DNA from: a virus
IMG/VR virus record: IMGVR_UViG_3300042868_012832
Span: 1-41,118 of that record
DNA length: 41,118 nt
Direction: 5' to 3' (one strand)
The translations under genes were made by a program, and so were the position numbers. The notes under the pieces are model-generated. The model did not search any database and was not told where the DNA came from. It saw only the letters and a program-made list of their open reading frames with translations. Shown in pieces: positions 1 through 26,322 of the stretch. How positions within the stretch are numbered: the first letter of the stretch is position 1; the number at the start of each line of letters is the position of its first letter.

Positions 1-2
1 TA

Positions 3-170
3 GTAGTTAGAAAAACTATCTTACAACCTACCGAGTACAAAAAAACCAAAAGCCGAGAGTTAACGATAGTTAAAAACAAAATTAAAAACTTATGCGAGTT
101 CAAGCAAGACAAATATAGAACTTTTATCTTTAACAAGGGCGATGTTAAAATGCAAGGTATTGAAATTTAA
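3..170 (+). CDS. C-terminal end of an unidentified protein (cut by window edge)
   Basis: An open frame runs from the window edge to a TAA at 168-170 and gives 55 residues of a lysine-rich C-terminus ending in KMQGIEI. The 5' end lies outside the window. A strong hairpin with a T tract begins 5 nt after the stop, which supports a real gene end. I do not recognise the family. The neighbouring gene on the other side of the intergenic gap is convergent. Confidence 0.6.
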   Translation, partial: VVRKTILQPTEYKKTKSRELTIVKNKIKNLCEFKQDKYRTFIFNKGDVKMQGIEI

Positions 171-174
171 AAAC

Positions 175-197
175 AAAAGCCCGAAAGGGCTTTTTTT
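175..197 (+). terminator. Rho-independent terminator
   Basis: AAAAGCCC, loop GAAA, GGGCTTTT, then continuing T residues. It lies directly after the stop at 170. Confidence 0.85.
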
Positions 198-560
198 ATG
201 CACTATAATTAAATGTTAAATTTATGTTAAAACTTATTATATTATTTGTTTATTTAAAATCTTTTTTAACGCATTTTAAAGCGATTTAAACAACTTTGTT
301 ACTATATGGATACGTTATACATATTTCAAAAGATAATGCCCCCTGCACCCTCCTACACCCCTCCCTGCCTGTTACCGCCCTCCCCCCGTTCCCCGTATGC
401 CGAGCAGAACGTGGGGCATGATGATGTTCGCAAAATTTTTTTGGTAATTTTTTTAAGTAAAATATTAGACCCCTTTTTCAAAAATTTTTTTCCAGAATTT
501 TTGGGATTAAAATATTAGGGGGTTGTTTTTTAAAAAAAATTTTTTGGAAAATTTTTGGGG
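198..560. other. Non-coding convergent intergenic region with a C-rich island
   Basis: No convincing gene. The region lies between two convergent genes, so no promoter is needed. It holds a strongly C-rich, G-poor stretch at 338-395, then A/T homopolymer-rich sequence in which AAAATATTAG occurs twice (459-468 and 509-518). A 70-codon open frame at 306-518 runs through the C-rich stretch and looks accidental (proline-rich, no homologous pattern). Confidence 0.6.
338..395 (-). other. G-quadruplex-capable G-rich strand (C-rich on +)
   Basis: The complement of this stretch has seven runs of three or more G separated by mostly short spacers, which fits the G4 pattern. Composition is completely unlike the rest of the AT-rich window. 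Function unknown. Confidence 0.5.
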
Positions 561-1049
561 TTATTTTTTAAGACCTACTCTTTGGTCATCGAACACAAGT
601 GGTTTGTAACCCATATTAACAAGTTTTAGATATAAGCCTTGGGTGGTTTGTGTTATTTCTGAATCTGATTTTATTATGTATCCTTTATTTAGGAAGTATT
701 CGTATATATCTGTTGCTATACCCCAACCTCTGTTGTCTTCGTTTAGGTATACTAGGTTAAAAGAAATTGTTGTTGGGTTTTTGATACCCCTTAGGAAGCC
801 TATTACGTCATCATTTACATTTAGGATAAATAATTCAAACGGTCCGCTTGATGGCAACTCATCTTTTTTTCTTATATGTACATAATGTTTATAGATTTGA
901 AAAATGTATGTATCGGTATCTTCGTTGAATTCTGGGATTCTTACTTGGTCATCTTCTAGGTCTAGAGTTGTTAAATTTTCTAATGCTTCTTCAAAATCGG
1001 CAATATTGTTTAAATTTTCTCTAAGTAAAAATTTTATTATGTGTTTCAT
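561..1049 (-). CDS. GNAT-like acetyltransferase with head-targeting-type leader
   Basis: 162 residues. The N-terminus MKHIIKFLLRE is the leader shared by many proteins in this window, and L-R-E fits the T4 gp21 (hydrophobic-x-Glu) processing rule. The C-terminal half looks like the core of a GNAT N-acetyltransferase: a beta strand FNLVYLNED, then an acetyl-CoA-type loop RGWGIA at residues 107-112, a helix, then SD-x-EITQTTQGLYLKLVNMGYKPL, which resembles the usual last strands and helix. Substrate unknown. It is the third gene of a minus-strand operon (2031 to 561) with gaps of 3 and 1 nt. I infer that it is packaged and injected. The GNAT call rests on motif reading only. Confidence 0.7.
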   Translation of the reverse strand: MKHIIKFLLRENLNNIADFEEALENLTTLDLEDDQVRIPEFNEDTDTYIFQIYKHYVHIRKKDELPSSGPFELFILNVNDDVIGFLRGIKNPTTISFNLVYLNEDNRGWGIATDIYEYFLNKGYIIKSDSEITQTTQGLYLKLVNMGYKPLVFDDQRVGLKK

Positions 1050-1050
1050 G

Positions 1051-1692
1051 TTATTTTATTATCTTTTTTTGGTTTTCATCTTCTAGATTATAGTAGTATG
1101 TATTTTCGTCACCTTTTTTAAGTACCCATCTATCTGACACTGATTCGCAGCACCATTCTTTATCATCCACCATCCAATCTGGTTTTTCTGGAAAAGGTTT
1201 TGTTACGAACGACATATCTCTCCACATTAATCTATTGTTTGGTTGTAGTGCAAAGTTTCCGTTGTCTAGTTTGATTAGGTGGGCTGCTTTGTATTGTGTT
1301 GGTTCGTTGGAGTATGGGTTGTCATACCAATCGAACGTCATTACATAGTTGCCCCATTCTTGGGTTCCATCTTTAAACACTACTTTTACTCTAGATTGTA
1401 GTAGGTAATCATATACTGTACATGTTACTTCGTATCCAAAGCAGTCCCATAGTTGAAGGTGGTCTAGTGGCATTTTGGTTGCGTCTTCTTTCCATGCTAG
1501 CATATGTATAGGGACTCTTGACCTAACAGCACCTTCTTCTGTCATTACGTGAAAGGTTAGTGCTTTGCCGCCTACGGATTGGGCTCCAAAAATAATTACA
1601 TCTTGTGTACCTTCTCTTCCATCATGTTGATACATGTGTTCGATTCTCATCTTGGCATAGAAGTGTGGTATTGTAACATTTAATGTGGCCAT
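1051..1692 (-). CDS. Conserved phage protein of unknown function
   Basis: 213 residues starting MATLNVTIPHFY, without the leader found on its neighbours. It contains motifs I associate with uncharacterised proteins of T4-like aquatic phages: FGAQSVGGKALTFHVM, PLDHLQLWDCFGYEV and LDNGNFALQPNNRLMWRD. Tryptophan and aromatic residues are frequent, suggesting a compact beta-rich fold. It is the middle gene of a three-gene minus-strand operon, 3 nt after the upstream gene and 1 nt before the acetyltransferase-like gene. No catalytic motif seen. Confidence 0.75.
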   Translation of the reverse strand: MATLNVTIPHFYAKMRIEHMYQHDGREGTQDVIIFGAQSVGGKALTFHVMTEEGAVRSRVPIHMLAWKEDATKMPLDHLQLWDCFGYEVTCTVYDYLLQSRVKVVFKDGTQEWGNYVMTFDWYDNPYSNEPTQYKAAHLIKLDNGNFALQPNNRLMWRDMSFVTKPFPEKPDWMVDDKEWCCESVSDRWVLKKGDENTYYYNLEDENQKKIIK

Positions 1693-1695
1693 GTA

Positions 1696-2031
1696 TTATT
1701 TGTTTTGATTTTGGTTTTTAATGATTAGCTCTCCAAGCACTTCAAGTCTACCCACTTCTCTTTGGAATTGTGTTTGTGTCATCTCTAGAGATATTTTCTT
1801 GAATGTTTCGTTGTATTCTTTTGTTGCTTGTTCGATATCAAATTTTCCGTTGATGGCTTTTTTGTAGTAAGCTGGTTTAACGTTAAAGTGGTTATATGTA
1901 AGCATTGCGTCGCCACCTTTTTCTTTTGCGTTTGCGATTATCTTTTCGGCGCCAGCAAGTCTATTCTTTGCGAAGTCTTTATCGTCAAAGACAAAATTTT
2001 CTCTTAGAAGTTGTTTTATAATATGTTTCAT
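1696..2031 (-). CDS. Small protein with head-targeting-type leader, unknown function
   Basis: 111 residues beginning MKHIIKQLLRE then NFVFDD, the clearest copy of the shared leader. The remainder is charged and predicted helical, with no recognisable domain; it ends KNQNQNK. First gene of a minus-strand operon. The promoter-like motif ATATTTATAA at 2063-2054 (minus) lies 22 nt before the start and overlaps the motif of the divergent gene at 2077. If the leader is cleaved after E11, the mature product is about 100 residues and could be an internal head protein. Confidence 0.7.
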   Translation of the reverse strand: MKHIIKQLLRENFVFDDKDFAKNRLAGAEKIIANAKEKGGDAMLTYNHFNVKPAYYKKAINGKFDIEQATKEYNETFKKISLEMTQTQFQREVGRLEVLGELIIKNQNQNK

Positions 2032-2049
2032 TTTTTATGGTTTTAAATT

Positions 2050-2059
2050 ATATTTATAA
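2050..2059 (+). promoter_or_regulatory. Proposed phage late promoter ATATTTATAA (plus)
   Basis: Lies 17 nt upstream of the ATG at 2077. Same motif and spacing as in front of several other leader-bearing and virion genes. Confidence 0.5.
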
Positions 2060-2063
2060 ATAT
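2054..2063 (-). promoter_or_regulatory. Proposed phage late promoter ATATTTATAA (minus)
   Basis: Reads ATATTTATAA on the minus strand, 22 nt upstream of the start at 2031. It overlaps the plus-strand copy at 2050-2059, making a near-palindrome that could serve both directions. Confidence 0.5.
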
Positions 2064-2076
2064 ATAAAAAATTAAA

Positions 2077-4200
2077 ATGAATACAAGCATACGCAATATA
2101 CTTAGAGAGGGTCTTATTCTTGAGGTATCAAAGAAAGACATTCTTATTAACAAGATTGGATTTGATGAGGAGTCGGCTAGCATACTTGATAGACTTTGTG
2201 GTCCGTTGAGTGTTTGGATGGGGAACAAGATTATTGAGCAAGGGGTTAATGAGCATGGCACATTTCCTGATGGTGTTACACAAGCACAAAAATACAAGAT
2301 GGTTTTGGATGACTTAAAGTATGATAGATACGTTAGTTCAAACCGTCAATTTATTACTTCTATTATGGACTGGATTCGTGTTGGTCTTAACGGAAACTTA
2401 GGAGAGAACAAGGCTATGTCTTTTAGAGAATTATACGATGCTTCAAACAAATGGCATGATGAATTGGAAGTTGGTTCTGGTGACATCAACTATGTTGAAG
2501 AGAATCCTATTATACTTGACTTTAGGGATGGCAACGGCAATGGGTTTTATTGGGCTGATTTGGAAACTGGTAGTTCAAAAGAGGAATGTGACCGTATGGG
2601 ACATTGTGGTACCAGTGGTGCTGGTAGGATTTATTCTCTTAGACAAGTCATTCAGTTAAATGAAAAGTATAAGCTTAACAAGTCTGTATTGACTGCTGCT
2701 ATTGGCACCGATGGTATTGTGTATCAAATGAAGGGTGGCAAAAATTCTAAACCTGAAGCTGTGTATCACCAATACATATATCCATTGTTATTTTTGAAGA
2801 GAGGTGATGGATATTTTATAAACGGGTTTGGTAGTGAATATGAGAGTTCTAGTGATTTTAAGTTAACTGATTTTAGTGATGATGTTATTAGGGAGATATT
2901 TGCCAAGCGTCCTGAGTTGTTTAACAAGAGAAGCCTAAAGAAGAAGCTTGTTGCCATGGGTCTTATTGACAAGTTGCCAGAAGAGTATGTTAATATTGAA
3001 ATTGACACTGATAGGGTTGATAGATATATTGATGGTGATTATTCGGTTCGTACAGTAAAAGATAGTTTTGGTAATAAAAAAGAGATAGGTTTGTTTGAAA
3101 CAATATTGGGTGGTGACACGTGGGATTTGTGGGACAACTATGATGCGGATTGGAAGAGTGCTTTGCAGTATCATGCTGACAGTGATAGTGAAGCTAGGAT
3201 TCTTGAGATGGTAAAAGCCATGGCTGTCAAGAATGGTATTGAGATTGATGAAGATTTATCGTTGGAAGATATGATAGAAGAATATGATGAGGACCAAGAG
3301 ATTATTCATGCTTTACAAAGAGCTGTTAACGATGCTGAGTCTGATGCTTATGTTGATGATATATACAAGAAGTTAAAAGAGGCTCTAGAGGAATTGGGTA
3401 CTGTTGAAAAAATGGATGACGAGGGTGTTGTGTTGCGTGTCAACGTTGGTAAGTATATAGATTATTTGGAAGAGGATGTTTATGAGGAGATTTCTGATAG
3501 ATGCGATGATAAATTGGAATGCATGTTTGATGAGATGATGGGTGAATGGATTGACAAGCCTGACTTCAGGTTTGATGACAGGTATTATTCACCTGATATC
3601 AACGATAGATATTTCAATGAGTTATTGCAAGAAAATCTGGATGAGATTAGGGTTGAAGAAATCAACGAGAGCAAGATTGTGATAAAAAATATTCTTAGAG
3701 AGAATTTTGCACCTAAGGTTGTCAACGAGGTTTCAAAAGAAACTTATTTAAGAATAAAACGTCTTTATCCTAAATCTAGGCTTATCATGTCGCATGAACC
3801 TGAGATTAACTTTAGAGAGAAACCTAATCAAGAATTAGAGTTTAAACCTAACGGTTTGTGGTATGGTATTGGCACCGCTTGGATTGACTATACTAGAGAT
3901 ACGTTTCCACATAGGGAGCAAGAGCATATGTTTAAGATAGATGTCGATGAATCTCAGATGAAGATAATCAGAACTCTTGAAGACATGGAAGAGTTTGAAA
4001 AAGAGTATGGTGTTAAGCAACCAAATTCTTATTACACATATATTGATTATGTAAGGGTTGCTCAAGATTATGGTGGTATAGAGATTGCTCCGTATCTTGG
4101 TGCTGCTTATGGGAAGCATTTATGGTATAATTCATGGGATTTGGCTTCTGGTTGTATTTGGAGGAAAGGTGTTATAAAAAGCATAACAAAAATTAGTTAA
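2077..4200 (+). CDS. Large protein with two head-targeting-type leaders, probable fusion of two cargo domains
   Basis: 707 residues. The N-terminus MNTSIRNILRE matches the shared leader, and a second copy, KIVIKNILRE followed by NFAPK, occurs inside the protein at residues 533-542. The first domain contains CDRMGHCGTS (C171, H176, C177), comparable to W/H-C motifs in three other proteins here, and a very acidic stretch from about 375 to 530. The second domain (about 543-707) has GLWYGIGTAWIDY, IDVDESQMKIIRTLED and an ending with WDLASGCIW, patterns I know from uncharacterised phage proteins. It looks like two former genes joined when a stop and a start were lost. Cleavage at both sites would release two mature proteins. 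Function unknown; packaging is inferred. Confidence 0.8.
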   Translation: MNTSIRNILREGLILEVSKKDILINKIGFDEESASILDRLCGPLSVWMGNKIIEQGVNEHGTFPDGVTQAQKYKMVLDDLKYDRYVSSNRQFITSIMDWIRVGLNGNLGENKAMSFRELYDASNKWHDELEVGSGDINYVEENPIILDFRDGNGNGFYWADLETGSSKEECDRMGHCGTSGAGRIYSLRQVIQLNEKYKLNKSVLTAAIGTDGIVYQMKGGKNSKPEAVYHQYIYPLLFLKRGDGYFINGFGSEYESSSDFKLTDFSDDVIREIFAKRPELFNKRSLKKKLVAMGLIDKLPEEYVNIEIDTDRVDRYIDGDYSVRTVKDSFGNKKEIGLFETILGGDTWDLWDNYDADWKSALQYHADSDSEARILEMVKAMAVKNGIEIDEDLSLEDMIEEYDEDQEIIHALQRAVNDAESDAYVDDIYKKLKEALEELGTVEKMDDEGVVLRVNVGKYIDYLEEDVYEEISDRCDDKLECMFDEMMGEWIDKPDFRFDDRYYSPDINDRYFNELLQENLDEIRVEEINESKIVIKNILRENFAPKVVNEVSKETYLRIKRLYPKSRLIMSHEPEINFREKPNQELEFKPNGLWYGIGTAWIDYTRDTFPHREQEHMFKIDVDESQMKIIRTLEDMEEFEKEYGVKQPNSYYTYIDYVRVAQDYGGIEIAPYLGAAYGKHLWYNSWDLASGCIWRKGVIKSITKIS
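3673..3702 (+). other. Internal copy of the head-targeting-type leader
   Basis: Encodes KIVIKNILRE (residues 533-542 of the 707-residue protein), nearly the same as the N-terminal leaders of the neighbouring genes but with an ATT codon where a start would be. Confidence 0.65.
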
Positions 4201-4207
4201 AGATAAA

Positions 4208-4240
4208 AAAGGGACCTGATTGGGTCCCTTTATTTTTTTT
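4208..4240. terminator. Bidirectional terminator between convergent genes
   Basis: AAAGGGACC, 6-nt loop, GGTCCCTTT with A/T tracts on both sides. It serves the gene ending at 4200 and the convergent gene ending at 4239. Confidence 0.85.
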
Positions 4241-5723
4241 ATGGTATGAATCTTTTTCTAATTGATTCTTTTATGTCTTCTTTTTGTTTTACCATTTTGA
4301 ATTCTTTTTCTATTCCAAGTCTTTTGGCGATTTCTTCTGGAGTTATATGTGAACCGTGTGTTGGTGAGCCCATGCTTTCATCAATGTCTTGGTTATACTT
4401 TGAGATTCTTGAGTTAACGTAATCTATAAGGTGGTTAACCATTTTGGATACTGTTTCGAATACGGTTACCATATTTTCTGGATTTCCGCCCCACATGATT
4501 GTATAGTTAAGACTTGTTGTTTTTAGGTCAAATCCGAACGCGTACATAAACATCCATGCTGATATTTCTGCTTGTTGTTCTATGGTTTGGTTTCCGTCAT
4601 TTTGTCTTCCAACGTGAAAATCAATTTTTCCTTGCATCTTAACATATGTTTGGTGAAGGAGTTCGTGAGATATTTCGTGAGCGAATGTTTTGGTTGTTCC
4701 AACATCGTTACCTTCGTTGGCAAGGAGTGTTATATTTCCATTTCTTGAAACACCTCTTGCGCCGCCTAGGTCATCGGAGAAGTCAACTTTGATTCCGTGT
4801 TCTTGGCAGAATTCTAGAAGTCCTTTGTATATTGGTTTTACTGAATCGTCTATCATTCCTTCTTCGAACCATTTTACATCTTTAATTGCGTCTTGTGCTC
4901 CAGTAATAAAATCTTCTTTGCCTTCTATTTGTATGGTTTGTGATACGTCGTATACTGGCGCCAAGAAGAACGAGCTAGCTATCATTGTTCCTCTTAGTTT
5001 TGTTTTTAGTTTTATTTTTTCGTTAGGGCTAAGAGCGTCAACTGATGGTTTTTTGGTTGTGTTAAGAAACGCTTGTGTTATGGCTTCTTTTTTTTCTTTT
5101 GACAAATTTTGTTTTTGTCCAGATGGTTTCCATACAAACAGTGGTGTAACGTTGGGTTTAATTTCTCTATTGTAAACATCTTTCCAAATTTGTTTATTGT
5201 TTACGATTGTTGCGGTTGGCATTTGAATCCATATAAGTAGGGAGTTTGACAATGTAAAGCTGTAGCCTTGGGCTGATTTGAACTTGATAAGTTTTCCGAT
5301 TGTTTCTTTGAATTGTTCGTCATCTTGAATGTTGGTCAATTGTTTTTTGAACAATATTAATTTGGCTTCAATTTGTTCTTTTTGTTGTGGTGTTATCTTA
5401 ACTTCTGGGTCAATTTTTTCAACGTCAGGGTTGTTAAGAAAATTAAGTATTTCATCGATTTCAAATTCCAATTTGTTTGGTTCTTTTATTGTCTTAAGGA
5501 ATTCAAACGCTGGTTTTATATTTTTTTCTATTGTTTTTTCAGGGTTTTCTTTATCCAAGAACCAAAAGAAGAATTTTTCTTTTGATTGGTATTTCATATT
5601 GTAGGTATCCATGATTTGTTTTGCAACGTTCCAATCAATAAAACCCTTAACTTTTGCAATTGGGTAAGCGCCCATCATTGCTTTTGCAAGTTTAATTTCA
5701 ACTTCATTTAAGGTTTTTTTCAT
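4239..5723 (-). CDS. ArdC-like antirestriction protein: ssDNA-binding-type domain plus zinc metallopeptidase
   Basis: 494 residues from the ATG at 5723; in-frame codons continue to 5846, but only the 5723 start leaves the divergent promoter region free. Residues about 130-200 resemble the ArdC N-terminal domain (YSFTLSNSLLIWIQMPTATI, a tryptophan, then a proline-ending strand). The C-terminal part has AHEISHELLHQ with overlapping HExxH motifs at H349-H353 and H353-H357, and acidic residues near E382-E386 that could be the third zinc ligand. ArdC-type proteins protect incoming DNA from restriction. The N-terminus MKKTLNE is a weak fit to the leader rule (L-N-E). I infer an injected anti-restriction role; an ImmA/IrrE-like peptidase is the alternative. 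Confidence 0.75.
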   Translation of the reverse strand: MKKTLNEVEIKLAKAMMGAYPIAKVKGFIDWNVAKQIMDTYNMKYQSKEKFFFWFLDKENPEKTIEKNIKPAFEFLKTIKEPNKLEFEIDEILNFLNNPDVEKIDPEVKITPQQKEQIEAKLILFKKQLTNIQDDEQFKETIGKLIKFKSAQGYSFTLSNSLLIWIQMPTATIVNNKQIWKDVYNREIKPNVTPLFVWKPSGQKQNLSKEKKEAITQAFLNTTKKPSVDALSPNEKIKLKTKLRGTMIASSFFLAPVYDVSQTIQIEGKEDFITGAQDAIKDVKWFEEGMIDDSVKPIYKGLLEFCQEHGIKVDFSDDLGGARGVSRNGNITLLANEGNDVGTTKTFAHEISHELLHQTYVKMQGKIDFHVGRQNDGNQTIEQQAEISAWMFMYAFGFDLKTTSLNYTIMWGGNPENMVTVFETVSKMVNHLIDYVNSRISKYNQDIDESMGSPTHGSHITPEEIAKRLGIEKEFKMVKQKEDIKESIRKRFIP

Positions 5724-5740
5724 AATGTTTACTATTTTAA

Positions 5741-5750
5741 CCATAAATAT
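5741..5750 (-). promoter_or_regulatory. Proposed phage late promoter ATATTTATGG (minus)
   Basis: On the minus strand, 17 nt before the start at 5723. It is the mirror partner of the plus-strand copy at 5752-5761, also 17 nt from its gene. Confidence 0.55.
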
Positions 5751-5751
5751 A

Positions 5752-5761
5752 ATATTTATGA
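5752..5761 (+). promoter_or_regulatory. Proposed phage late promoter ATATTTATGA (plus)
   Basis: 17 nt upstream of the ATG at 5779. With the minus copy it forms the near-perfect palindrome CATAAATATAATATTTATG at 5742-5760. Confidence 0.55.
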
Positions 5762-5778
5762 TTAAAAGGTTTAATTTT

Positions 5779-6381
5779 ATGAAAAATATAATAAAACAGT
5801 TGCTTAGAGAACAGTTTGTAAACGAGGCAACATATACCAACGACATCTATAAATTCTTGGACCAAGACCCTAAGCGAATGACAACTGGTACCGCGTATTA
5901 TATTTCATCTATGGATAACTATATGAACAAAACACTTGTCGATAAATTTGGCAACAAGGTTCCAAATCCAATGTATGGTAAAATTTTTAAACACACTAGA
6001 TTTATATTTGGATGGAGAGATACTTTTGAGAGAGCCATGAAAAGAATAAACCCTAGATATGTTGTTGGTGATAAGACTGGCAACTATAAACCTGTTGATG
6101 GTTATGATATGCTTGAGACTGGCAAGAGTGGGTTGTATTTTCCTATTGTTCCTACTGGGACTGAGTATGTTTATGTTATTTGTAACGGTCCATGTAGAGT
6201 TGCTGACAAAAGCGAAGTTAAGCAATTTTTAAAACCTTCTGATGGTTCTTATTGGTCGGCTGAGGGCAAAGCACCTTTTAGACAATTAATTGTTGATAGA
6301 GCTGTTAAAATCACTGGTGGTGGACATGAGTGGGTAAATGATAAAATAAAAGGTAAATGGCTTGGAATAGGAAATGTATAA
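5779..6381 (+). CDS. Leader-bearing protein of unknown function
   Basis: 200 residues from the ATG at 5779. An upstream in-frame ATG at 5725 would put the promoter-like palindrome inside the gene. The N-terminus is MKNIIKQLLRE then QFVNEATY. The body is basic and aromatic-rich (GWRDTFERAMKRINPRYVVG, SGLYFPIVPTGTEYVYVICNG), with no family I recognise. The next gene starts 1 nt after its stop, so the two are co-transcribed. I infer a packaged protein from the leader alone. Confidence 0.75.
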   Translation: MKNIIKQLLREQFVNEATYTNDIYKFLDQDPKRMTTGTAYYISSMDNYMNKTLVDKFGNKVPNPMYGKIFKHTRFIFGWRDTFERAMKRINPRYVVGDKTGNYKPVDGYDMLETGKSGLYFPIVPTGTEYVYVICNGPCRVADKSEVKQFLKPSDGSYWSAEGKAPFRQLIVDRAVKITGGGHEWVNDKIKGKWLGIGNV

Positions 6382-6382
6382 G

Positions 6383-8563
6383 ATGAAAAATATAGTAAAA
6401 CAATTGCTTAAAGAAACGTTGGTAAACGAATTCTATGGTAAAAATGTTATTGAACCCGTAACCAAAAGATTCAACGATTCTTCAGATGATATGATAAACA
6501 AACTGGCGATTGCTTATTTGTTTAGACAATTTTTTGGTGACATCATGCAATATAAAACCAAACAGCAATTTGATAACACGTTTAACAAATGGTATGATGG
6601 GATGTTGGGTCAGTTGATTAAAACCACTTCATTTCCTGAAAACCGTGAGTTGGCCAAAAAATACTTAGACGCTTATATTAACAACATTGTTTTGTTGGGT
6701 GACAAGGCGCAGCCATTTTCTATGAAAAAGATTGAGCAAGGACTTGTAGATTTGGTTAACAACAATAGATGGATAAAAGATGAAGAAATAGGTATTGGTC
6801 CTACAATAGAAAAACCCAACCAAGAAGATGTTGTTTATGAGGATGAGAATGTTATTGTTTTGGACACCAACACCAAAGCCAAGTGTGTTATGTATGGCAA
6901 AGGGGAATCTTGGTGTATAACCAAGCCTGAATTGAATTATTACAACACATATAGACTTAGCTATGGTGCCACGCCTTATTTTGTTTTGCAAAAGAATGTC
7001 AAAGGTGACGAACAAAAATTGGTTATTATGAACTATGGTGGTTATAATGGATACGCTATTGCTGATAGGAGCAACACTGGTGAAAGAAGTGGTAATTCAA
7101 GCAATGCAATGCCATGGTATGAAATAGAGGAACAATTACCTAATTTACAAGGTCTTGAAAAGTATTTCCCATATAGAGAAATTACCGATGATGAGCGTAA
7201 ATATTCTGAGTTGTTGGATAAGATTAAGGTTAATTTTATTGCGAATGATTTACAAAACTTGGTTGATAGAAGCATAAAAGGGCTTGTGGTTAACGGTTCT
7301 CAAGTAACACCAGCTGATTTTATTAGGGATTTAGCAGCCAATCAAATGTTTTTTAATTTAGACCAGTTAAAAAGCCTTAGAAAAGAAACGATGGATAGTC
7401 TTATTGAAGTTGGTTACTTTGTTAACAAGTATTACGATACGGCGTTATATGAAGAATTGTTATCACCAACTCAAATAAATCGTATCATAAAATTAAAAAT
7501 AGATAGCAACAAGATAATCGATGAAGCTTTTTATAAGCACATGTCAGAAGACATGCTTAAAAAATACTTTATGTTGAGGATAGATGGTAATAACAACGGT
7601 ACTGATAATAGTTATCAAGCTGGTATTAATCAATCTAAACTAAACTTAGACGAAGTGCGTTTAATTAAACAATTATTACCTGATGTTAAAATAGAGACAA
7701 ATAGATATGATTTTACCAACGAGTTTGATTTATCTACAGCTATTTATGCTGACCCTAGTATAATAACCAATCCAGAAGTTAAAGAAAATTTAGATAAATT
7801 TTCTAAATATCAAATAACCATACTAATTGATTCGAATCCTGATTTAGCAAAATACCTAGTTAAATTAGAAAATTTTAAAGAAATACCAACATGGCAATTA
7901 TCTAATTTATTGGAAAGAAGACCAAAGATTTATAAAGTAATTCTAGACAATTTATCAGGTGAAAGAAAAGAAGAACTTTTAGACAGATTAAAATTTACTA
8001 CTTTGCTTCCTTTCTTAATCAGAGATAAATACCTTAAAATAGATTCTGAAGAAGAGTATAAAAGTGTTAGGTATACAATTTTATATGATACCAAAAGCAA
8101 AGCTTTTGTTTATGACCCACAGTTGTTAAGATTTGTTAACAGTCCTTATGACCTTGAAAAAATTTTAGTTCAACAACCAACGTTGAGTAAATATTTGGGT
8201 GATAAAATAAACAGCATGACTGATTATGATTTAAAGGATATCATACAAAAAAATCCAAAAATGTTAAAGTATATTTCTGATGAACGTATTGATAAGATGG
8301 GTGAGTATAGAATATACAATATGATATATGGTAAACCAATCCTAGCGCGCCAATTGTATAATAAGATTGGTATGAATTATATAATTGATTTGATGAGAAA
8401 CGTACCGAAAGTAATTCAATACTTACCTGATTCTGTACTTAGACAGTTGGAAAAGTATGATATGATAAGTCTTTTATATAAAAAAGAGTTATACCCATAT
8501 TTGGAACCAATAATTGACAAGTATATGCCAGATGATAAAGATTTTATCTTGGATAGAATATAA
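6383..8563 (+). CDS. Large leader-bearing protein with a WCIT cysteine motif and helical repeats
   Basis: 726 residues from the ATG at 6383 (MKNIVKQLLKE, then TLVNEFYG); an ATG 9 nt earlier overlaps the previous stop, and the leader decides the start. Residues about 150-230 contain NTKAKCVMYGKGESWCIT (C168, C178), then NYYNTYR and strands ending in VIMNYGG. This resembles a module in uncharacterised phage proteins and the WCTA and HCV motifs of two other genes here. The C-terminal 400 residues look like divergent helical repeats with recurring phrases of the type NPDLAKYL, RPKIYKVIL and NPKMLKYI. Codon use becomes more AT-rich after about 7600. Function unknown; possibly a packaged effector. 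Confidence 0.75.
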   Translation: MKNIVKQLLKETLVNEFYGKNVIEPVTKRFNDSSDDMINKLAIAYLFRQFFGDIMQYKTKQQFDNTFNKWYDGMLGQLIKTTSFPENRELAKKYLDAYINNIVLLGDKAQPFSMKKIEQGLVDLVNNNRWIKDEEIGIGPTIEKPNQEDVVYEDENVIVLDTNTKAKCVMYGKGESWCITKPELNYYNTYRLSYGATPYFVLQKNVKGDEQKLVIMNYGGYNGYAIADRSNTGERSGNSSNAMPWYEIEEQLPNLQGLEKYFPYREITDDERKYSELLDKIKVNFIANDLQNLVDRSIKGLVVNGSQVTPADFIRDLAANQMFFNLDQLKSLRKETMDSLIEVGYFVNKYYDTALYEELLSPTQINRIIKLKIDSNKIIDEAFYKHMSEDMLKKYFMLRIDGNNNGTDNSYQAGINQSKLNLDEVRLIKQLLPDVKIETNRYDFTNEFDLSTAIYADPSIITNPEVKENLDKFSKYQITILIDSNPDLAKYLVKLENFKEIPTWQLSNLLERRPKIYKVILDNLSGERKEELLDRLKFTTLLPFLIRDKYLKIDSEEEYKSVRYTILYDTKSKAFVYDPQLLRFVNSPYDLEKILVQQPTLSKYLGDKINSMTDYDLKDIIQKNPKMLKYISDERIDKMGEYRIYNMIYGKPILARQLYNKIGMNYIIDLMRNVPKVIQYLPDSVLRQLEKYDMISLLYKKELYPYLEPIIDKYMPDDKDFILDRI

Positions 8564-8651: not shown

Positions 8652-9875
8652 ATGGGAAGACAAATAAACAAGGAAAAAGTTCTTGAAGAAAAAGGTGAGT
8701 TAAAACAATATACTTTGTTCAAAGAAACTAAATCGGATAAATTGGAATGGTTGTTAGACGCTTACAAACAAGACCCGTACAAGGCTCGTGTGTTGTTTTT
8801 TAATAGCCGTCCAGATTGTTCTATTGAACGCGATGTTTGTTTTGAAAGAACAGATGGTAGTTTTGAAATTTGCTGTTTTAGAAGAACATTTAGTATGACT
8901 AAAACCAATCGAATTTATTCTAGGGAAAAAAAGGTTAAGTCTTTGATTTACAAGAATAAAAAATTATATTTTAAAAACGGCACTAGTCTTAAGCATGCAA
9001 TGTATAGTGACATTAGTTGTCATTTTAGTTTTGCTAACGATTTTTTGCAAGAGAGGTTTGCGTGGCTTAGAAACATAAAAGAGAATAAATATTGTCACAA
9101 TATTTCTTTATCATCTGTTATAACTTATAAATTATTCAACGCTGATAAAGTGTTGAAACACTTGTATAAAGTTCCCACAGCTGTTATAAAGGTGTTGACT
9201 GAAGACTACAACCAAATTAATCAAGGTTATGGGTCTAATGGTTATATTTCAAAATTCGATTGGAAACGAATTAGCCCATTTTTGACAAACGTTGAAAATT
9301 TGAAAGTTACCCATTTTAAAAACCATTTATTTAGAGATGCTATTGAAATGGCTATTAAATTGGATAGAAAGATAAACTGTTCATGGTCTGATAAAAGACT
9401 TAAACTTGAACATGATACTTGGGCCAAAGAGCTAAGAAAAATAATGCTTGAGTTTGAACCAATTATTCAATTAAACCCTCACAAAATATTTGAAGATTTC
9501 GAACAGTTTACTGGGTACAACATGCTTAGAACCAATCACGAACTTATTGAAGAAGGTCATAAACAAGACCATTGTGTTGCTGGTTATGGTAGTTCAATTG
9601 CCAGTGGTTATTCTGGTATTTACCAAGTTAGCGGATACACACTAGAAGTTAGTTATAGAGTAGATTATTATGACAAAAGCAATCCAAATAAGAAAAAATT
9701 AAATTACGCTCAACTTAGAGGTTTAAGAAATTGCTCAGCACCAAAAGAGTTAGATGACACTGTTAAAAGTTATATCACAGCATTTAACAACAAATATAAT
9801 TTTGATGAATATGAAAATTACTTAAAAACGAATAAAATCGTTAGAAGTGAATATGTAAATGAATTACCGTTTTAA
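8652..9875 (+). CDS. PcfJ-like protein
   Basis: 407 residues. The C-terminal part has the pattern of PcfJ-like proteins: MLRTNHELIEEGHKQDHCVA (H307, C308), GYGSSIASGYSGIYQV, a strand LEVSY and AQLRGLRNCSAP. PcfJ was named from a conjugative plasmid and its biochemical role is not known. The N-terminal half has a cluster of cysteines (CSIERDVCF, FEICCF) but no clear zinc site. It lacks the head-targeting leader and has a host-type promoter, so it is probably an early protein acting in the cytoplasm. A terminator follows 6 nt after the stop. Confidence 0.7.
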   Translation: MGRQINKEKVLEEKGELKQYTLFKETKSDKLEWLLDAYKQDPYKARVLFFNSRPDCSIERDVCFERTDGSFEICCFRRTFSMTKTNRIYSREKKVKSLIYKNKKLYFKNGTSLKHAMYSDISCHFSFANDFLQERFAWLRNIKENKYCHNISLSSVITYKLFNADKVLKHLYKVPTAVIKVLTEDYNQINQGYGSNGYISKFDWKRISPFLTNVENLKVTHFKNHLFRDAIEMAIKLDRKINCSWSDKRLKLEHDTWAKELRKIMLEFEPIIQLNPHKIFEDFEQFTGYNMLRTNHELIEEGHKQDHCVAGYGSSIASGYSGIYQVSGYTLEVSYRVDYYDKSNPNKKKLNYAQLRGLRNCSAPKELDDTVKSYITAFNNKYNFDEYENYLKTNKIVRSEYVNELPF

Positions 9876-14193: not shown

Positions 14194-14517
14194 ATGGACC
14201 TAAAACCTAAAATACGAAAAGTTTTAAGAGAACACTATGGTGAATTTGAAACGTATTTAGAACATAGATACGAAGAAGTTTTAACCGAGAACTTAATTAG
14301 TGGTTCAACAAGAATAAAAGAAGCGTGGGCGACTTACAACCAAGTAGTTTTAGAATTAAAAAATAGCATACAAAACACACTTAAATTAAAAGAACTTCAA
14401 TACAAATTAACCGACAATTCAAACCCAAACGATATGTGTATCGAGGTTATATTTGAGATAAAAGATACCTCACCAGAACTAAAAAGGTTGTACGAAAAAA
14501 TAAAAAATTTGTACTGA
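14194..14517 (+). CDS. Leader-bearing protein of unknown function
   Basis: 107 residues starting MDLKPKIRKVLRE then HYGEFE, a variant of the shared leader with the V-L-R-E cleavage-type end. Helical, with AWATYNQVVLELKNSIQNTL in the middle. Co-transcribed with the preceding gene (2-nt gap). Not recognised. Confidence 0.65.
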   Translation: MDLKPKIRKVLREHYGEFETYLEHRYEEVLTENLISGSTRIKEAWATYNQVVLELKNSIQNTLKLKELQYKLTDNSNPNDMCIEVIFEIKDTSPELKRLYEKIKNLY

Positions 14518-18707: not shown

Positions 18708-18720
18708 CACCCCTTTTATT
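18695..18720. terminator. Bidirectional terminator overlapping a stop codon
   Basis: AAAAGGGG, 7-nt loop containing the TAA stop of the plus gene, CCCCTTTT. The convergent gene ends at 18719. Confidence 0.8.
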
Positions 18721-19351
18721 ATTTTACTATCTTAGCAATTATTTGCACAACACAAATAATATTATTTCTACCTTTTTCATATTTAACATCAACAACATCA
18801 AATTCAAATTCTGGCGCTTCAAGATTTAAAGCTGAAGCTATTTGAACCTTAGCTTTACCGATTGCTAAGTCTTTAGCTATTTCTTTGGTTGGACCATCTG
18901 TTTTAGCTATCGACGTATATGTACCGTTAGCGTTTCTGGTAACACCAACTTTATCTGATTTTTCAGTTTTAAATGGGTCTTTTGTCATTGCTTGTGCGTT
19001 TGGTGAACCAAGTGACGCTGCTGCCATACCTAACGTACCTAGAGTTTTAGCAAAGCTACCTTCTTCAATTTCTTCTCTAAGAAGTTTTTTAATTAATTTT
19101 CTTTGAGATTCTTTCAAATCTTTTTCTGCGTCTTTTTCCATTTTCTCAAGTCTGTCATAATAATCTGGGAACTCAGTGATGTGGTCCATAGCAATTTCTT
19201 TTGCTTTTTCTTTATCGTCGGTATGTTCAGATTCAATACCAACACCTTTTTTTATTTGTGCTTGTATTTTATCGACTGATACGTTGAATTTGTCAGCAAT
19301 GTCTTGTAATGACATGTTATCGGATTTACCACCTTTTATTGTGTTTTTCAT
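18719..19351 (-). CDS. DUF5661-type protein with internal head-targeting-like motif
   Basis: 210 residues. Residues about 37-71 match the DUF5661 pattern (GIESEHTDDKEKAKEIAMDH, then ITEFPDYYDRLEKME). At residues 84-93 there is RKLIKKLLRE, identical in style to the leaders of other genes, then EIEEGSFAKTLGTLGMAAAS and SPNAQA, which looks like a hydrophobic core with an A-x-A end. The C-terminal domain (about 125-210) is a small alpha/beta domain without a match. If processed at LLRE, the first 93 residues would be removed. It starts 3 nt after the metallopeptidase gene, so the two are one operon. Confidence 0.7.
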   Translation of the reverse strand: MKNTIKGGKSDNMSLQDIADKFNVSVDKIQAQIKKGVGIESEHTDDKEKAKEIAMDHITEFPDYYDRLEKMEKDAEKDLKESQRKLIKKLLREEIEEGSFAKTLGTLGMAAASLGSPNAQAMTKDPFKTEKSDKVGVTRNANGTYTSIAKTDGPTKEIAKDLAIGKAKVQIASALNLEAPEFEFDVVDVKYEKGRNNIICVVQIIAKIVK

Positions 19352-19354
19352 AGT

Positions 19355-19762
19355 TTAGATATAATCTTCAGGGTGAATCCTACCCCATTTTCTCATTATT
19401 ATTCCAGCCAACGAATTGGCTTCATTTTCTATTGGGCTACCATCGGCACCGTCTATTTCAGTATCTGTAAGTCTTCCATCTATATTTTGTTTATGGTGTA
19501 CTAATTCATGTGCAATTGAACGCATTATATCAATCTTAGCTCTATCTTTAACGTAGACTTTAACTCTATGGTCACTATTGTGATAATATGCGGTTGTTCT
19601 AAGGTCTGCTGTTTTTTCAAACGCTAGTTCAACTTTTACATCATCATCGATACCTAACAACTTTTTAGCGAAATTAACAAAATCAGACACATCCAAGACG
19701 TCTTGTTTGTCTTTGGTCATGATTGCTTCTCTAAGTAATTGTTTTATAAATCCTTTTGACAT
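19355..19762 (-). CDS. Leader-bearing zinc metallopeptidase
   Basis: 135 residues. The N-terminus MSKGFIKQLLRE then AIMTKD is a clear copy of the shared leader. The catalytic motif is AHELVHHKQ (H85, E86, H89), and a downstream ENEAN (about E112-E114) supplies a likely third ligand, as in small gluzincin-type peptidases. Target unknown. With the leader it may be carried in the capsid; alternatively it acts on virion or host proteins late in infection. Promoter-like motif 14 nt upstream. Confidence 0.75.
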   Translation of the reverse strand: MSKGFIKQLLREAIMTKDKQDVLDVSDFVNFAKKLLGIDDDVKVELAFEKTADLRTTAYYHNSDHRVKVYVKDRAKIDIMRSIAHELVHHKQNIDGRLTDTEIDGADGSPIENEANSLAGIIMRKWGRIHPEDYI

Positions 19763-19825: not shown

Positions 19826-21097
19826 TTATTGTTTTTTAATTTCTTTAGGTTTATTTATAATTAATGTTTCACTGTCTTTAGAATAAACAATTTTAATCGT
19901 GTCACCTTCTTCGAAGACTTCTGTAAGGATTTCATCAGCTACTAAATCTTCAACATAATGTTGAATGGCTCTATTCAAAGGTCTAGCACCGTATTCTTCA
20001 TCATAACCTTGTTTAGCAATAAAGTCTAACGCTTCTTCTGAAATATTCAAATTAAACTTTAATTCAGCTAAACGTTTTTCTAAGTGTTTAATTTCAATGT
20101 TTATAATTTCTCTAATATTTTCTTTAGATAAAGAGTTAAAGATGATAGCTTCGTCAATACGGTTAAGAAATTCTGGTTTAAATTTCTTTTTCAAGGCTTT
20201 ATCGATAATGGCTCTAGATTTAGATTCTTCATTAAAACTTGATGTACCAGTTTCAAAACCCATTGATTTCCCAAATGAATTAGCTTCTCTAACACCAATA
20301 TTTGATGTCATAATTATAAGAGCATTTTTAAAATTAACTTTACGACCCAACCCATCAGTTAAATGACCTTCATCAAGTAATTGTAACAATAAGTTGAATA
20401 CATCATCGTGAGCTTTTTCAATCTCATCAAATAAGATAACACAATGTGGTTTACGTCTAACTTTTTCAGTCAACTGACCCCCTTGGTCGTATCCAACGTA
20501 GCCTGGTGGTGGACCAACCAACCTCGACACAGAATGTTTCTCCATGTATTCAGACATGTCTACCCTAACAAGAGCTTCAGAGTCACCATATACATGTTCA
20601 GCAAGTAATTTAGCAAGAAGTGTATTGTGTGATAAAATACCATTGGTGTAATATCGTCTGTTAGAACCCTCCACTAATTCAAGGTCATACATAACTTCTT
20701 CATAACCTAAATTGGTTACTTCAATAACTTCAGATTCTGTTAGATTACCCTTGTCATCAGAAACCATAACAAAAGACCCAATTTTTAAGTCTTTAACAAA
20801 CACTTCAGTTAAACCAATTGGTTCAAATGTGGTTTCATCATATTCGGTAACGAATACAATGTGATTATCAGCACATTTAAGTTCTTTACCATCACTTAAT
20901 TTAAGATGATATACTTCATATGGTATTGTTTCGTGTAACGCCTCTATGTCAACAAAACCATCATCAGTTAAAACTTCATAATCACTAATTTTGGTTGTTT
21001 TGGTAATTTTCTTTAACGAATCTAATTCGTGTTTATCAAATAATAAAACATTATCTGATTTATCAACTCTTTTTTTAATTTCTTCTATTCTATTCAT
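19826..21097 (-). CDS. clpC: Split-intein C-half fused to the C-terminal part of ClpC-type ATPase
   Basis: 423 residues. Residues 1-158 are the C-terminal part of a split intein: block B-like LSDGKELKCADNHIVF, block F-like MYDLELVEGSNRRYYTNG and the terminal ILSHN. The extein starts with T at residue 159 and restores the second AAA+ Walker A when joined to GPTGVGK from the gene at 23004. It then has GPPPGYVGYDQGG, VILFDEIEKAHDDV, TSNIGVRE and KPEFLNRIDE, the usual ClpC/ClpB sequence. A tripeptide MGF (in SFGKSMGFETG) sits where ClpC has its ClpP-docking loop. Protein splicing in trans would rebuild a ClpC of about 834 residues. Confidence 0.9.
   Translation of the reverse strand: MNRIEEIKKRVDKSDNVLLFDKHELDSLKKITKTTKISDYEVLTDDGFVDIEALHETIPYEVYHLKLSDGKELKCADNHIVFVTEYDETTFEPIGLTEVFVKDLKIGSFVMVSDDKGNLTESEVIEVTNLGYEEVMYDLELVEGSNRRYYTNGILSHNTLLAKLLAEHVYGDSEALVRVDMSEYMEKHSVSRLVGPPPGYVGYDQGGQLTEKVRRKPHCVILFDEIEKAHDDVFNLLLQLLDEGHLTDGLGRKVNFKNALIIMTSNIGVREANSFGKSMGFETGTSSFNEESKSRAIIDKALKKKFKPEFLNRIDEAIIFNSLSKENIREIINIEIKHLEKRLAELKFNLNISEEALDFIAKQGYDEEYGARPLNRAIQHYVEDLVADEILTEVFEEGDTIKIVYSKDSETLIINKPKEIKKQ
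20624..21097 (-). other. C-terminal fragment of a split intein in clpC
   Basis: 158 residues from MNRIEEIKKR to SHN, with T as the +1 residue. It contains everything after the first block, including SDYEVLTDDGF and block B. Confidence 0.85.
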
Positions 21098-21500
21098 AAC
21101 TTTCTATTTTTATTTTATTTCTACTAAAATTAAACGTATAATTTATTAATGGATGGTTAAAATCAATTTCACTAAATACATTCCTATCAATATCAATTCT
21201 AATACAAGTTTTCATAATATCTACATTACTTAATACTCGTTCTTCCATTTCATCATGTTTAGGGATAAACCTTTTATTATTTAACAAACTCCACCCACGA
21301 TAACAGAATGGTTTTACTTTGTAATTATATCTTAGTTTATCATAGTCAAAAACCATTCTAACACCTCTGTTTGTTAAATAATAAAAATCCCTTGTCATAT
21401 ATACACAAGGTTCTACTATTCGTTCATCTTTCAATATAAAACCACTTTCCAAAATTGATTTTAATCTTTTTAAATTTGATACATTGTGATATAATTCCAT
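21090..21500 (-). CDS. Unknown protein inside the split clpC locus
   Basis: 136 residues beginning MELYHNVSNLKRLKSILESG. The start resembles small proteins of the type LYHgt...L..IL..GF seen in ADP-ribosyl-transferase-like and related folds, but no catalytic triad can be assigned, so this is only a hint. It overlaps the start of the intein C-half gene by 8 nt, so the two are translated together. It is probably cargo carried with the homing element or an insertion tolerated there. Confidence 0.55.
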   Translation of the reverse strand: MELYHNVSNLKRLKSILESGFILKDERIVEPCVYMTRDFYYLTNRGVRMVFDYDKLRYNYKVKPFCYRGWSLLNNKRFIPKHDEMEERVLSNVDIMKTCIRIDIDRNVFSEIDFNHPLINYTFNFSRNKIKIESYE

Positions 21501-21501
21501 A

Positions 21502-21720
21502 TTATAATTTCATCCTATTAATTAATTGAATATATGAGTTCATATCTAATTTTTCAGATAGGTATTTTATTATTATTTCTTTATTATTATATTCTTTTGG
21601 TTTATTTAAAAATTCAAAAACTATTTCTAGAAATAAATCCTTTTCAATGTCGCTTTCTTTACAATAAACCATAAAATCACCAAATGATGGGATAAAAGTA
21701 TTAATATCAGTCATATTCAT
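21502..21720 (-). CDS. Small unknown protein inside the split clpC locus
   Basis: 72 residues (MNMTDINTFIPSFGDFMVYC), acidic and helical with no recognised family. It is preceded by a good host-type promoter located in the end of the endonuclease gene, which would also transcribe the next gene and the C-half of clpC. Confidence 0.6.
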   Translation of the reverse strand: MNMTDINTFIPSFGDFMVYCKESDIEKDLFLEIVFEFLNKPKEYNNKEIIIKYLSEKLDMNSYIQLINRMKL

Positions 21721-21728
21721 ATTTTTTA

Positions 21729-21759
21729 CAAAGGTACTACTTTTTATTTAGAAAATCAA
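21729..21759 (-). promoter_or_regulatory. Bacteroidota-type host promoter (minus)
   Basis: On the minus strand TTG at 21759-21757, 20 bp spacer, TACCTTTG at 21736-21729; ATG at 21720. It gives the downstream half of the split clpC its own promoter. Confidence 0.75.
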
Positions 21760-22957
21760 TACATCTATCTATTATTTCTTCTTTATTACCCCACCTATAT
21801 TCTGAATCCCATATTACCAACACTTCAAAGCCTTCTTCAATTGCAACATCTAGTTTTCTTTTATCTTTATCCCACATTTCTTGTGCTGTTATATTTTTCC
21901 TAAATGGGTGTGGGTTATCCAAACTATTATATTTCTTTGGGTTCCCATGATACATATCACCATGAAACTCAATTATTTTTTTATTTTTGACATCAGTAAA
22001 ATCATATAACCAAACACCACCTTCTTTTTTCTCTAATTTGAACTCACTATTGTGTGTTGCGAAATAAACTTTATCTTTATCACTAATATCATATATTTCT
22101 AAAATTTTATAGAACAAATCTTGAGATATTTTAGAATATCCAATAACCATATTACCATTAGTTAATAACGAATTTAACCATTTATTTTGTCTTTCAGTAA
22201 AACGTTTTTTACCATCTTCTTCACCATATTTTTCAACACACTTTTCAAGACTAAAAGTAGTTTGATGTTCTGATACATTTTGTTTTGCCTCTTCTTTTGA
22301 ATAACCTTTATTAATCCAATATTCTATATTGGATGGTATTAATCTTTTTTCAAAATCAACTTGTTTTGCAGCTTCAGTTTGGTTTTTTCTAATTATATCT
22401 TTTGACTCATTTTCACTATAACCTTTATTAACCCAAAAATCAATATTTGTTGGTGTTAAACAAATACGTTTTATTTCTTCTTCGCTGTAACCTTTTTCAA
22501 TTAACATTTTTTTAGATTTACCATGATAAGTTTTAACACATTTAGAAGATTTTTTTTGTTGGTTAGATATTTCTAATTCAGCTTCTTCAACTGAAAAACC
22601 TTTGTTTAACCAATACTCAACACATAAACGATTTCTTTGTTTTAATTCTTTATTACGTTTACACAATTCAACTAAAGCGTCTACTTCATCCCAACCACGT
22701 TCAATCCAATATTCTAATTCACCATACTTTTTAGTTTTAAAATTATAATTTTTAACCAACCAACCGCGCATTAACGATAACGAAACAACACCCTCTTGTT
22801 CTTGTAATTTAATCATTAATGATTCCATTTCTCTTTTTATTGTTTCATTATCGTAGCGTATGTTTTTATCTAGTTTTAAAACATGGTCTTTAAAGGTTTC
22901 TAAATTTGGAAACACTTCATTTACTTCTTTAATTCCTTTACTTGTTTTTATCTTCAT
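21737..22957 (-). CDS. Vsr-like homing endonuclease within the split clpC
   Basis: 406 residues. The C-terminal 130 residues have the Vsr/PD-(D/E)XK look: DFTDVKNKKIIEFHGDMYHG, then AQEMWDKDKRKLDVAIEEGF and EVLVIWDSEYR. Vsr-like endonucleases of this kind are known to sit between halves of split-intein genes in phages. The centre carries about five copies of a repeat of the form YWxNKGYSxEEA (for example EYWLNKGFSVEEAE, DFWVNKGYSENES, EYWINKGYSKEEAK), probably DNA-recognition modules, and CVEKYGEEDGKKRF. It presumably cuts clpC alleles lacking the element. Promoter-like motif ATATTTATTA at 22980-22971. Confidence 0.8.
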   Translation of the reverse strand: MKIKTSKGIKEVNEVFPNLETFKDHVLKLDKNIRYDNETIKREMESLMIKLQEQEGVVSLSLMRGWLVKNYNFKTKKYGELEYWIERGWDEVDALVELCKRNKELKQRNRLCVEYWLNKGFSVEEAELEISNQQKKSSKCVKTYHGKSKKMLIEKGYSEEEIKRICLTPTNIDFWVNKGYSENESKDIIRKNQTEAAKQVDFEKRLIPSNIEYWINKGYSKEEAKQNVSEHQTTFSLEKCVEKYGEEDGKKRFTERQNKWLNSLLTNGNMVIGYSKISQDLFYKILEIYDISDKDKVYFATHNSEFKLEKKEGGVWLYDFTDVKNKKIIEFHGDMYHGNPKKYNSLDNPHPFRKNITAQEMWDKDKRKLDVAIEEGFEVLVIWDSEYRWGNKEEIIDRCIDFLNKK

Positions 22958-22970
22958 GATATCTATTTTA

Positions 22971-22980
22971 TAATAAATAT
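22971..22980 (-). promoter_or_regulatory. Proposed phage late promoter ATATTTATTA (minus)
   Basis: 13 nt upstream of the start at 22957, so the endonuclease may be expressed late, unlike the clpC halves. Confidence 0.45.
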
Positions 22981-23003
22981 CATGAAGTTTTAAAAAGTTA
23001 GGA

Positions 23004-26041: not shown

Positions 26042-26322
26042 TGAAAAACGAAGACTACAAAAAATTAGGTTTGCTAAACTTTGAAGGTGATGTACTTAAA
26101 GCATATCACGTTCCCATAACTAAGACTTTCTTAATTGTTGATGACCATGGTCATATTGTGGAATCATGTACCAAAAAAGAGTTGATTGAGTTTTTAGATG
26201 GAAAGAAAGAAATCACAACTAGCTACGGTAGAACCTACAATTTCAGCAAAGAGCATGAAAACGCTAAACCAAGTCAAGAAAAAATTGACGAGTATTTAAA
26301 ATTACAACCAGATGCCGAATAA
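26041..26322 (+). CDS. Small protein of unknown function
   Basis: 93 residues ([20 protein letters not shown]). [20 protein letters not shown] suggests a small beta domain. The end overlaps thyA by 11 nt, so translation is coupled. Confidence 0.7.

Follow-up and report, generated by a model that had tools for sequence, protein, structure and literature searches.

In phage T4, the prohead protease cuts after L/I-x-E motifs; for the internal protein IPIII, the first ten residues are enough for packaging, and processing of Alt takes place at both ends, at ITE-6 and LTE-619 (PMC9026906, PMC5694885). At its C-terminus, Alt loses 63 residues (PMC5694885). Phage polyvalent proteins have a metallopeptidase domain of their own, to which their release has been attributed (PMC5512222).

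The stretch analysed here (the window) is 41,118 nucleotides of viral DNA. Its 707-residue double-leader ORF has a leader at the start and a second, internal one (KIVIKNILRE, residues 533–542, nt 3673–3702, followed by NFAPK). We consider it likely that this is a natural fusion, at a leader, of two capsid-targeted cargoes, which would be packaged whole and cut into two in the prohead. The relevant features are listed below; a slash within a motif marks a predicted cut.

561..1049, minus: leader gene (MKHIIKFLLRE) with a GNAT-like body (weak match)
1696..2031, minus: leader gene (MKHIIKQLLRE)
2077..4200, plus: double-leader ORF, 707 aa, open without internal stop
2077..2124, plus: N-terminal leader, MNTSIRNILRE/GLILE/VSKK; the second LxE aligns with the family LxE/ASKK
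2125..3648, plus: first module (N-part, residues 17–524), with a conserved EECxRMGHCG; AlphaFold2 mean pLDDT 86
3661..3729, plus: internal leader cassette, INE/SKIVIKNILRE/NFAPKVVNE/, flanked on both sides by L/I/V-x-E motifs
3730..4197, plus: second module (residues 552–707), ART-like domain, phrog_8582; AlphaFold2 mean pLDDT 94.6
4205..4235, plus: terminator-like hairpin and T run downstream of the double-leader ORF (read by eye)
4239..5723, minus: M78/IrrE-like metallopeptidase gene (weak profile matches), between the fused ORF and cargo2
5779..6381, plus: cargo2, a separate leader gene (MKNIIKQLLREQFVNE/ATYTND), fused behind the internal leader in the relative L002
6383..8563, plus: leader gene (MKNIVKQLLKE)
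14194..14517, plus: leader gene
18719..19351, minus: a second protein with an internal leader, in the order DUF5661 domain, leader, domain X
19073..19102, minus: its internal leader, RKLIKKLLRE, preceded by LKE/SQ
19355..19762, minus: leader gene (MSKGFIKQLLRE); resembles a peptidase by eye, without a Pfam match

A leader matrix of 10 positions was built from 20 N-terminal leaders, including that of this ORF and leaving out the internal one. The internal leader scored 15.8 bits, a value that 11 of 20,000 shuffled versions of this protein reached, which bears out the preliminary description in placing one leader at the ORF start and a second copy at residues 533–542. In the window plus three relatives (662 ORFs), 40 sites scored at least 15 bits, against 0.3 expected from shuffles. 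Most were gene starts, and those lacking a methionine were the internal and tail leaders described in this text, with one further site that is probably due to chance. The same description had read an ATT in the internal leader as a former ATG start codon. This was wrong: the initiator methionine aligns with Ser532 (AGC), and the ATT at 3691–3693, where four close relatives have ATG, is leader residue 8.

Elsewhere in the window, a minus-strand ClpB-like gene (19826–24806) was found in two pieces. Two intein-like halves (GKCICGDTEII... / ...NGILSHNTLLAK) sit where it is interrupted, and other ORFs, including 21737–22957, lie in between. The arrangement resembles that of a fractured gene bearing a split intein; G001–G003 have a single ClpB-like ORF across the break site. 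On the plus strand, a thymidylate-synthase-like ORF (26312–28261, 649 aa, recognized by eye) had an in-frame insertion of ~290 aa, and a T4-type large terminase ORF (36078–39071) had an intein with a LAGLIDADG domain.

A profile search placed the first module in a family with at least 58 viral loci. Nearly all members stop at window residue ~524–527 (DRLxEI before the stop) and have few or no residues beyond it. At the N-terminus their leaders vary, most of them ending in L/I-x-E followed by ASK, VSK or GSK, where GLILE/VSKK of the window aligns. In the AlphaFold2 model of the first-module piece, residues 1–17 and 528–532 were predicted to be disordered. A fold search among solved structures gave no credible relative of this module, Pfam and NCBIfam had no name for either module, and a pattern search of the genome collection returned no relative of the double-leader ORF. 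The helical part also had weak profile matches to MCR_D, DUF445 and a phrog_168 clamp loader, which were taken to be noise.

Tandem fusions of the first module were found in L039, L040 and L058, and fusions behind another domain in L012 and L059. Leader-like segments sit at these joins, those in L040 and L058 scoring low against the leader matrix. Several of these fusions keep a methionine, so separate starts are possible there. The L058 homologue also had an in-frame TAG (8682–8684) within the conserved ILYQLKG motif, possibly a sign of TAG-to-Gln recoding in that phage or of a broken copy. L002 encodes a further 610-aa protein (6152–7984), whose first 23 residues are nearly those of the first module, followed by a different body and ending in DESRKNIRKILRS. 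It may represent another leader swap, with a C-terminal leader-like tail.

The only naming match of the second module from PHROGs was phrog_8582, of unknown function. A profile search, built with actinophage homologues, gave 161 relatives, of which 80 were kept. In L075, L076, L077/L079 and L081 the module is a stand-alone gene, or a gene start, with its own LLRE-type leader, for example MKNLIKQLLRENLLSE/VSDDIYEIIRTQYPNARI, with the predicted cut before VS. Behind quite different leaders, E/VS is kept in L070, L073, L074, L080 and L082; several dissimilar second-module leaders thus retain E/VS or E/IS, and the internal copy of the window reads VVNE/VSKETY. L077 and L079 share contigs with the close relatives L004 and L005, so these phages have each of the two genes in unfused form. 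On the 306-kb L005 contig the first-module and ART-like genes are ~43–44 kb apart, the latter being the third gene past the capsid gene. The contigs of L027, L043 and L056 carry both genes roughly 8 kb apart, judging by contig ranges.

When the second-module model was compared with the PDB, the top 18 matches were all ADP-ribosyltransferases (ARTs); they were weak (best E 0.16, TM about 0.35), so "ART-like" is a lead and not a finding. The module is possibly a compact ADP-ribosyltransferase-like domain. The glutamate of its GIEI motif is nearly invariant in the family; at one other nearly invariant position the window deviates. Searching PDB sequences with the profile of this module gave no match. 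Similar folds were predicted in Klosneuvirus, Faunusvirus, Fadolivirus and Tupanvirus, and a polyvalent-like phage protein of 2784 aa (L087, ORF 2–8365) contains the module as well.

The internal leader is common to the window and four close relatives, L002–L005. In L003, L004 and L005 (70–75% identical) it forms a C-terminal tail, the protein ending in SLNESKAFIKNMLRENFK or LDEGKVMIKNMLRERFR. In L002 (81% identical), EINESKVRVKNMLRENFVTEERYSND runs on into cargo2, the homologue of the window gene at 5779–6381. In L003–L005, cargo2 stands as a gene of its own, headed by a leader, beyond the minus-strand metallopeptidase-like gene. On the L002 contig the latter gene was not found, and cargo2 occurs only in the fusion, with no second copy. 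Left of the junction, the L002 DNA equals the L004 tail over 24 nt (AAGAATATGCTTAGAGAGAATTTT); to the right it matches cargo2 (67/81 vs 25/81), the junction lying within the leader. This is the footprint expected from a deletion between two leaders. As the metallopeptidase-like gene and cargo2 are still present in the window, the ART-like cargo must have joined by another event. The first-module tree places the tail-only members, L004/L005 and then L003, outside window plus L002 (supports 84 and 67, which are modest), suggesting that the tail arose first and both cargoes later. The tail comparison comprises four distinct, very short sequences, in which counts of synonymous and amino-acid changes say nothing on selection.

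The sequences on either side of the internal leader thus behave as separate proteins in relatives, as the preliminary description had supposed, and the unfused versions that it had called for exist for both modules. Homologues are neither always fused nor devoid of the internal motif, ILRE or MLRE being kept in all five clade members. The proposed fusion of two adjacent leader genes needs revision: the joining of two leader-bearing modules at a leader is well supported by these comparisons, adjacency does not agree with the spacing of the unfused genes, and the leader had probably been a C-terminal tail already when the ART-like cargo joined. Relatives end the first protein at the tag or carry another cargo behind it, making the tag a join and a likely cutting point.

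Similar states were found in DUF5661 proteins. The leader is a C-terminal tail in L191 (ending in LKESQKKLIKKLIRENLGF), L192 (ending in EINESQKKLIKNLLRENLK) and L193; behind it stands domain X in the window and in G003, and other cargoes in L194–L196. The G002 protein has an extra domain ahead of leader and X. In L005, a GNAT-like ORF reads in frame through a leader into the homologue of window 19355–19762. The automatic fusion survey was dominated by one false leader in L020, and its results were read by hand. The fusion, the unfused relatives, the differing cargoes at the same leader and the glutamates at the predicted cuts can all be read directly from these genomes. With roughly even confidence, we propose more generally that the capsid-targeting leader is a position-independent excisable cassette (approximately E/S-K-x-x-I-K-x-L-L-R-E/N), occurring at N-terminal, internal or C-terminal positions. 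It would act as a recombination point and as a proteolytic divider, giving effector polyproteins of fixed ratio.

The tail-only states of L003–L005 and of the DUF5661 proteins L191, L192 and L193 also fit an alternative compatible with the fusion-and-cleavage explanation, namely that the leader at the C-terminus serves in its own right as a capsid-targeting or tethering tag and that the cargo fusions are secondary. The tail-first tree and the 63-residue C-terminal propeptide lost by T4 Alt (PMC5694885) point the same way; against it, the first module is already supplied with a leader at its N-terminus. We give this alternative a substantial chance, somewhat short of even.

Genes for a T4 gp21-type protease (PF03420) and a gp23-type capsid protein (PF07068) were above cut-off in all nine related contigs and in none of 14 control genomes; the search covered the contigs of the nine relatives, the window itself being a 41-kb fragment. 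The N-terminus of the relatives' capsid protein has LLTE or LINE followed by A or S. T4 gp23 is cut at Glu65, in FLTE/A, to which the predicted LLTE/A is similar, as it is to the leader sites. In the Met-less leaders that were read, a glutamate stands right before the position of the lost methionine, or one residue further off in L193. The residues there are INE, INE, LDE and LNE in the first-module clade, and LKE, VKE, INE, PTE, TNE and KNE in the DUF5661 proteins. P3 is mostly L, I or V, the DUF5661 exceptions to L/I being V, P, T or K. The bracketing of the internal leader by glutamate motifs is a post hoc observation.

From these features we infer packaging, cleavage, ejection and effector function as follows. 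Like the T4 capsid-targeting sequence, the leader would bring the protein into the prohead core, where a gp21-type protease would cut after L/I-x-E. The first protein of this clade would have gained a C-terminal leader copy, at which recombination later added the ART-like domain in the window and cargo2 in L002. The chain would enter the prohead as a single molecule, and cuts would be made there at its N-terminal leader and around the internal leader (INE/SKIVIKNILRE/NFAPKVVNE/VSK). Two mature proteins would result in a 1:1 ratio and then be ejected. That the prohead protease divides the chain into two proteins is plausible in light of these motifs.

Accidental leader-to-leader recombination could instead have left the internal leader as a mere linker within an uncut two-domain effector. 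Recombination at shared leader DNA would by itself account for the L002 junction, and the tails of L003–L005, with no product behind them, could be relics: they end three residues past LRE, so that a cut there would remove almost nothing. However, the five members have kept not only the leader core but also the surrounding glutamates, both are found again among DUF5661 proteins with several cargoes, disorder is predicted where the linker begins and each of the nine relatives tested has the protease, all of which makes an uncut effector unlikely. Still less probable is that two products arise by internal translation initiation and not by proteolysis. An in-frame GTG at 3679, within the internal leader, could begin a second protein, and the fusions in L165, L012, L059 and L039/L040 retain a methionine near the internal leader, but the codon at 3679 is AGA in L002 and the internal leader of the window has no ATG. 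A chance match or an assembly artefact, conceivable for a metagenomic contig, is hardly credible for an internal leader common to five contigs and given the excess of leader sites over shuffles.

If the fusion-and-cleavage explanation is true, there are head-packaged polyproteins divided by the phage's own capsid-maturation protease, and a single packaging event supplies two effectors in equal amounts. The T4 capsid-targeting sequence would be extended from a start-only to an internal and C-terminal signal, suggesting how ejected cargo shuffles between genes and bearing on the role of the second, C-terminal propeptide of Alt. The leader also offers a simple sequence rule for finding further ejected effectors. 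What is most novel is not the single double-leader gene; it is the occurrence of the leader as an internal or C-terminal cassette with exchangeable cargo, of which we found no description in the open-access literature.

With respect to known systems, the likeness to T4 IPI–III lies in the short N-terminal leader ending in L/I-x-E, in the unrelated bodies behind similar leaders, and in the T4-type protease and capsid protein encoded by the window's relatives. T4 IP proteins have one N-terminal leader, whereas here a second is found at residues 533–542, or at the C-terminus in L003–L005, and in the window it joins two cargoes in one chain. Actinophage phrog_8582 proteins are homologous to the second module (about 28–31% identity); they are stand-alone, without an LLRE-type leader in the four that were read. 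Phage polyvalent proteins (Iyer et al. 2017, PMC5512222) likewise have several conflict-type domains per chain, and the polyvalent-like L087 includes a second-module relative. Unlike the metallopeptidase-mediated release of polyvalent proteins, release here is ascribed to prohead-protease sites in the leader cassettes, and Pfam, PHROGs and NCBIfam detected no peptidase domain (MPTase or autopeptidase) in the double-leader ORF. T4 Alt, an ADP-ribosyltransferase processed by gp21 at both ends, has a parallel in the predicted processing motifs at both ends of the first module; the possible ART-like cargo of the window is a resemblance to Alt and not an established homology. The C-terminal propeptide of Alt is 63 aa long with no second cargo behind it, whereas the window has one.
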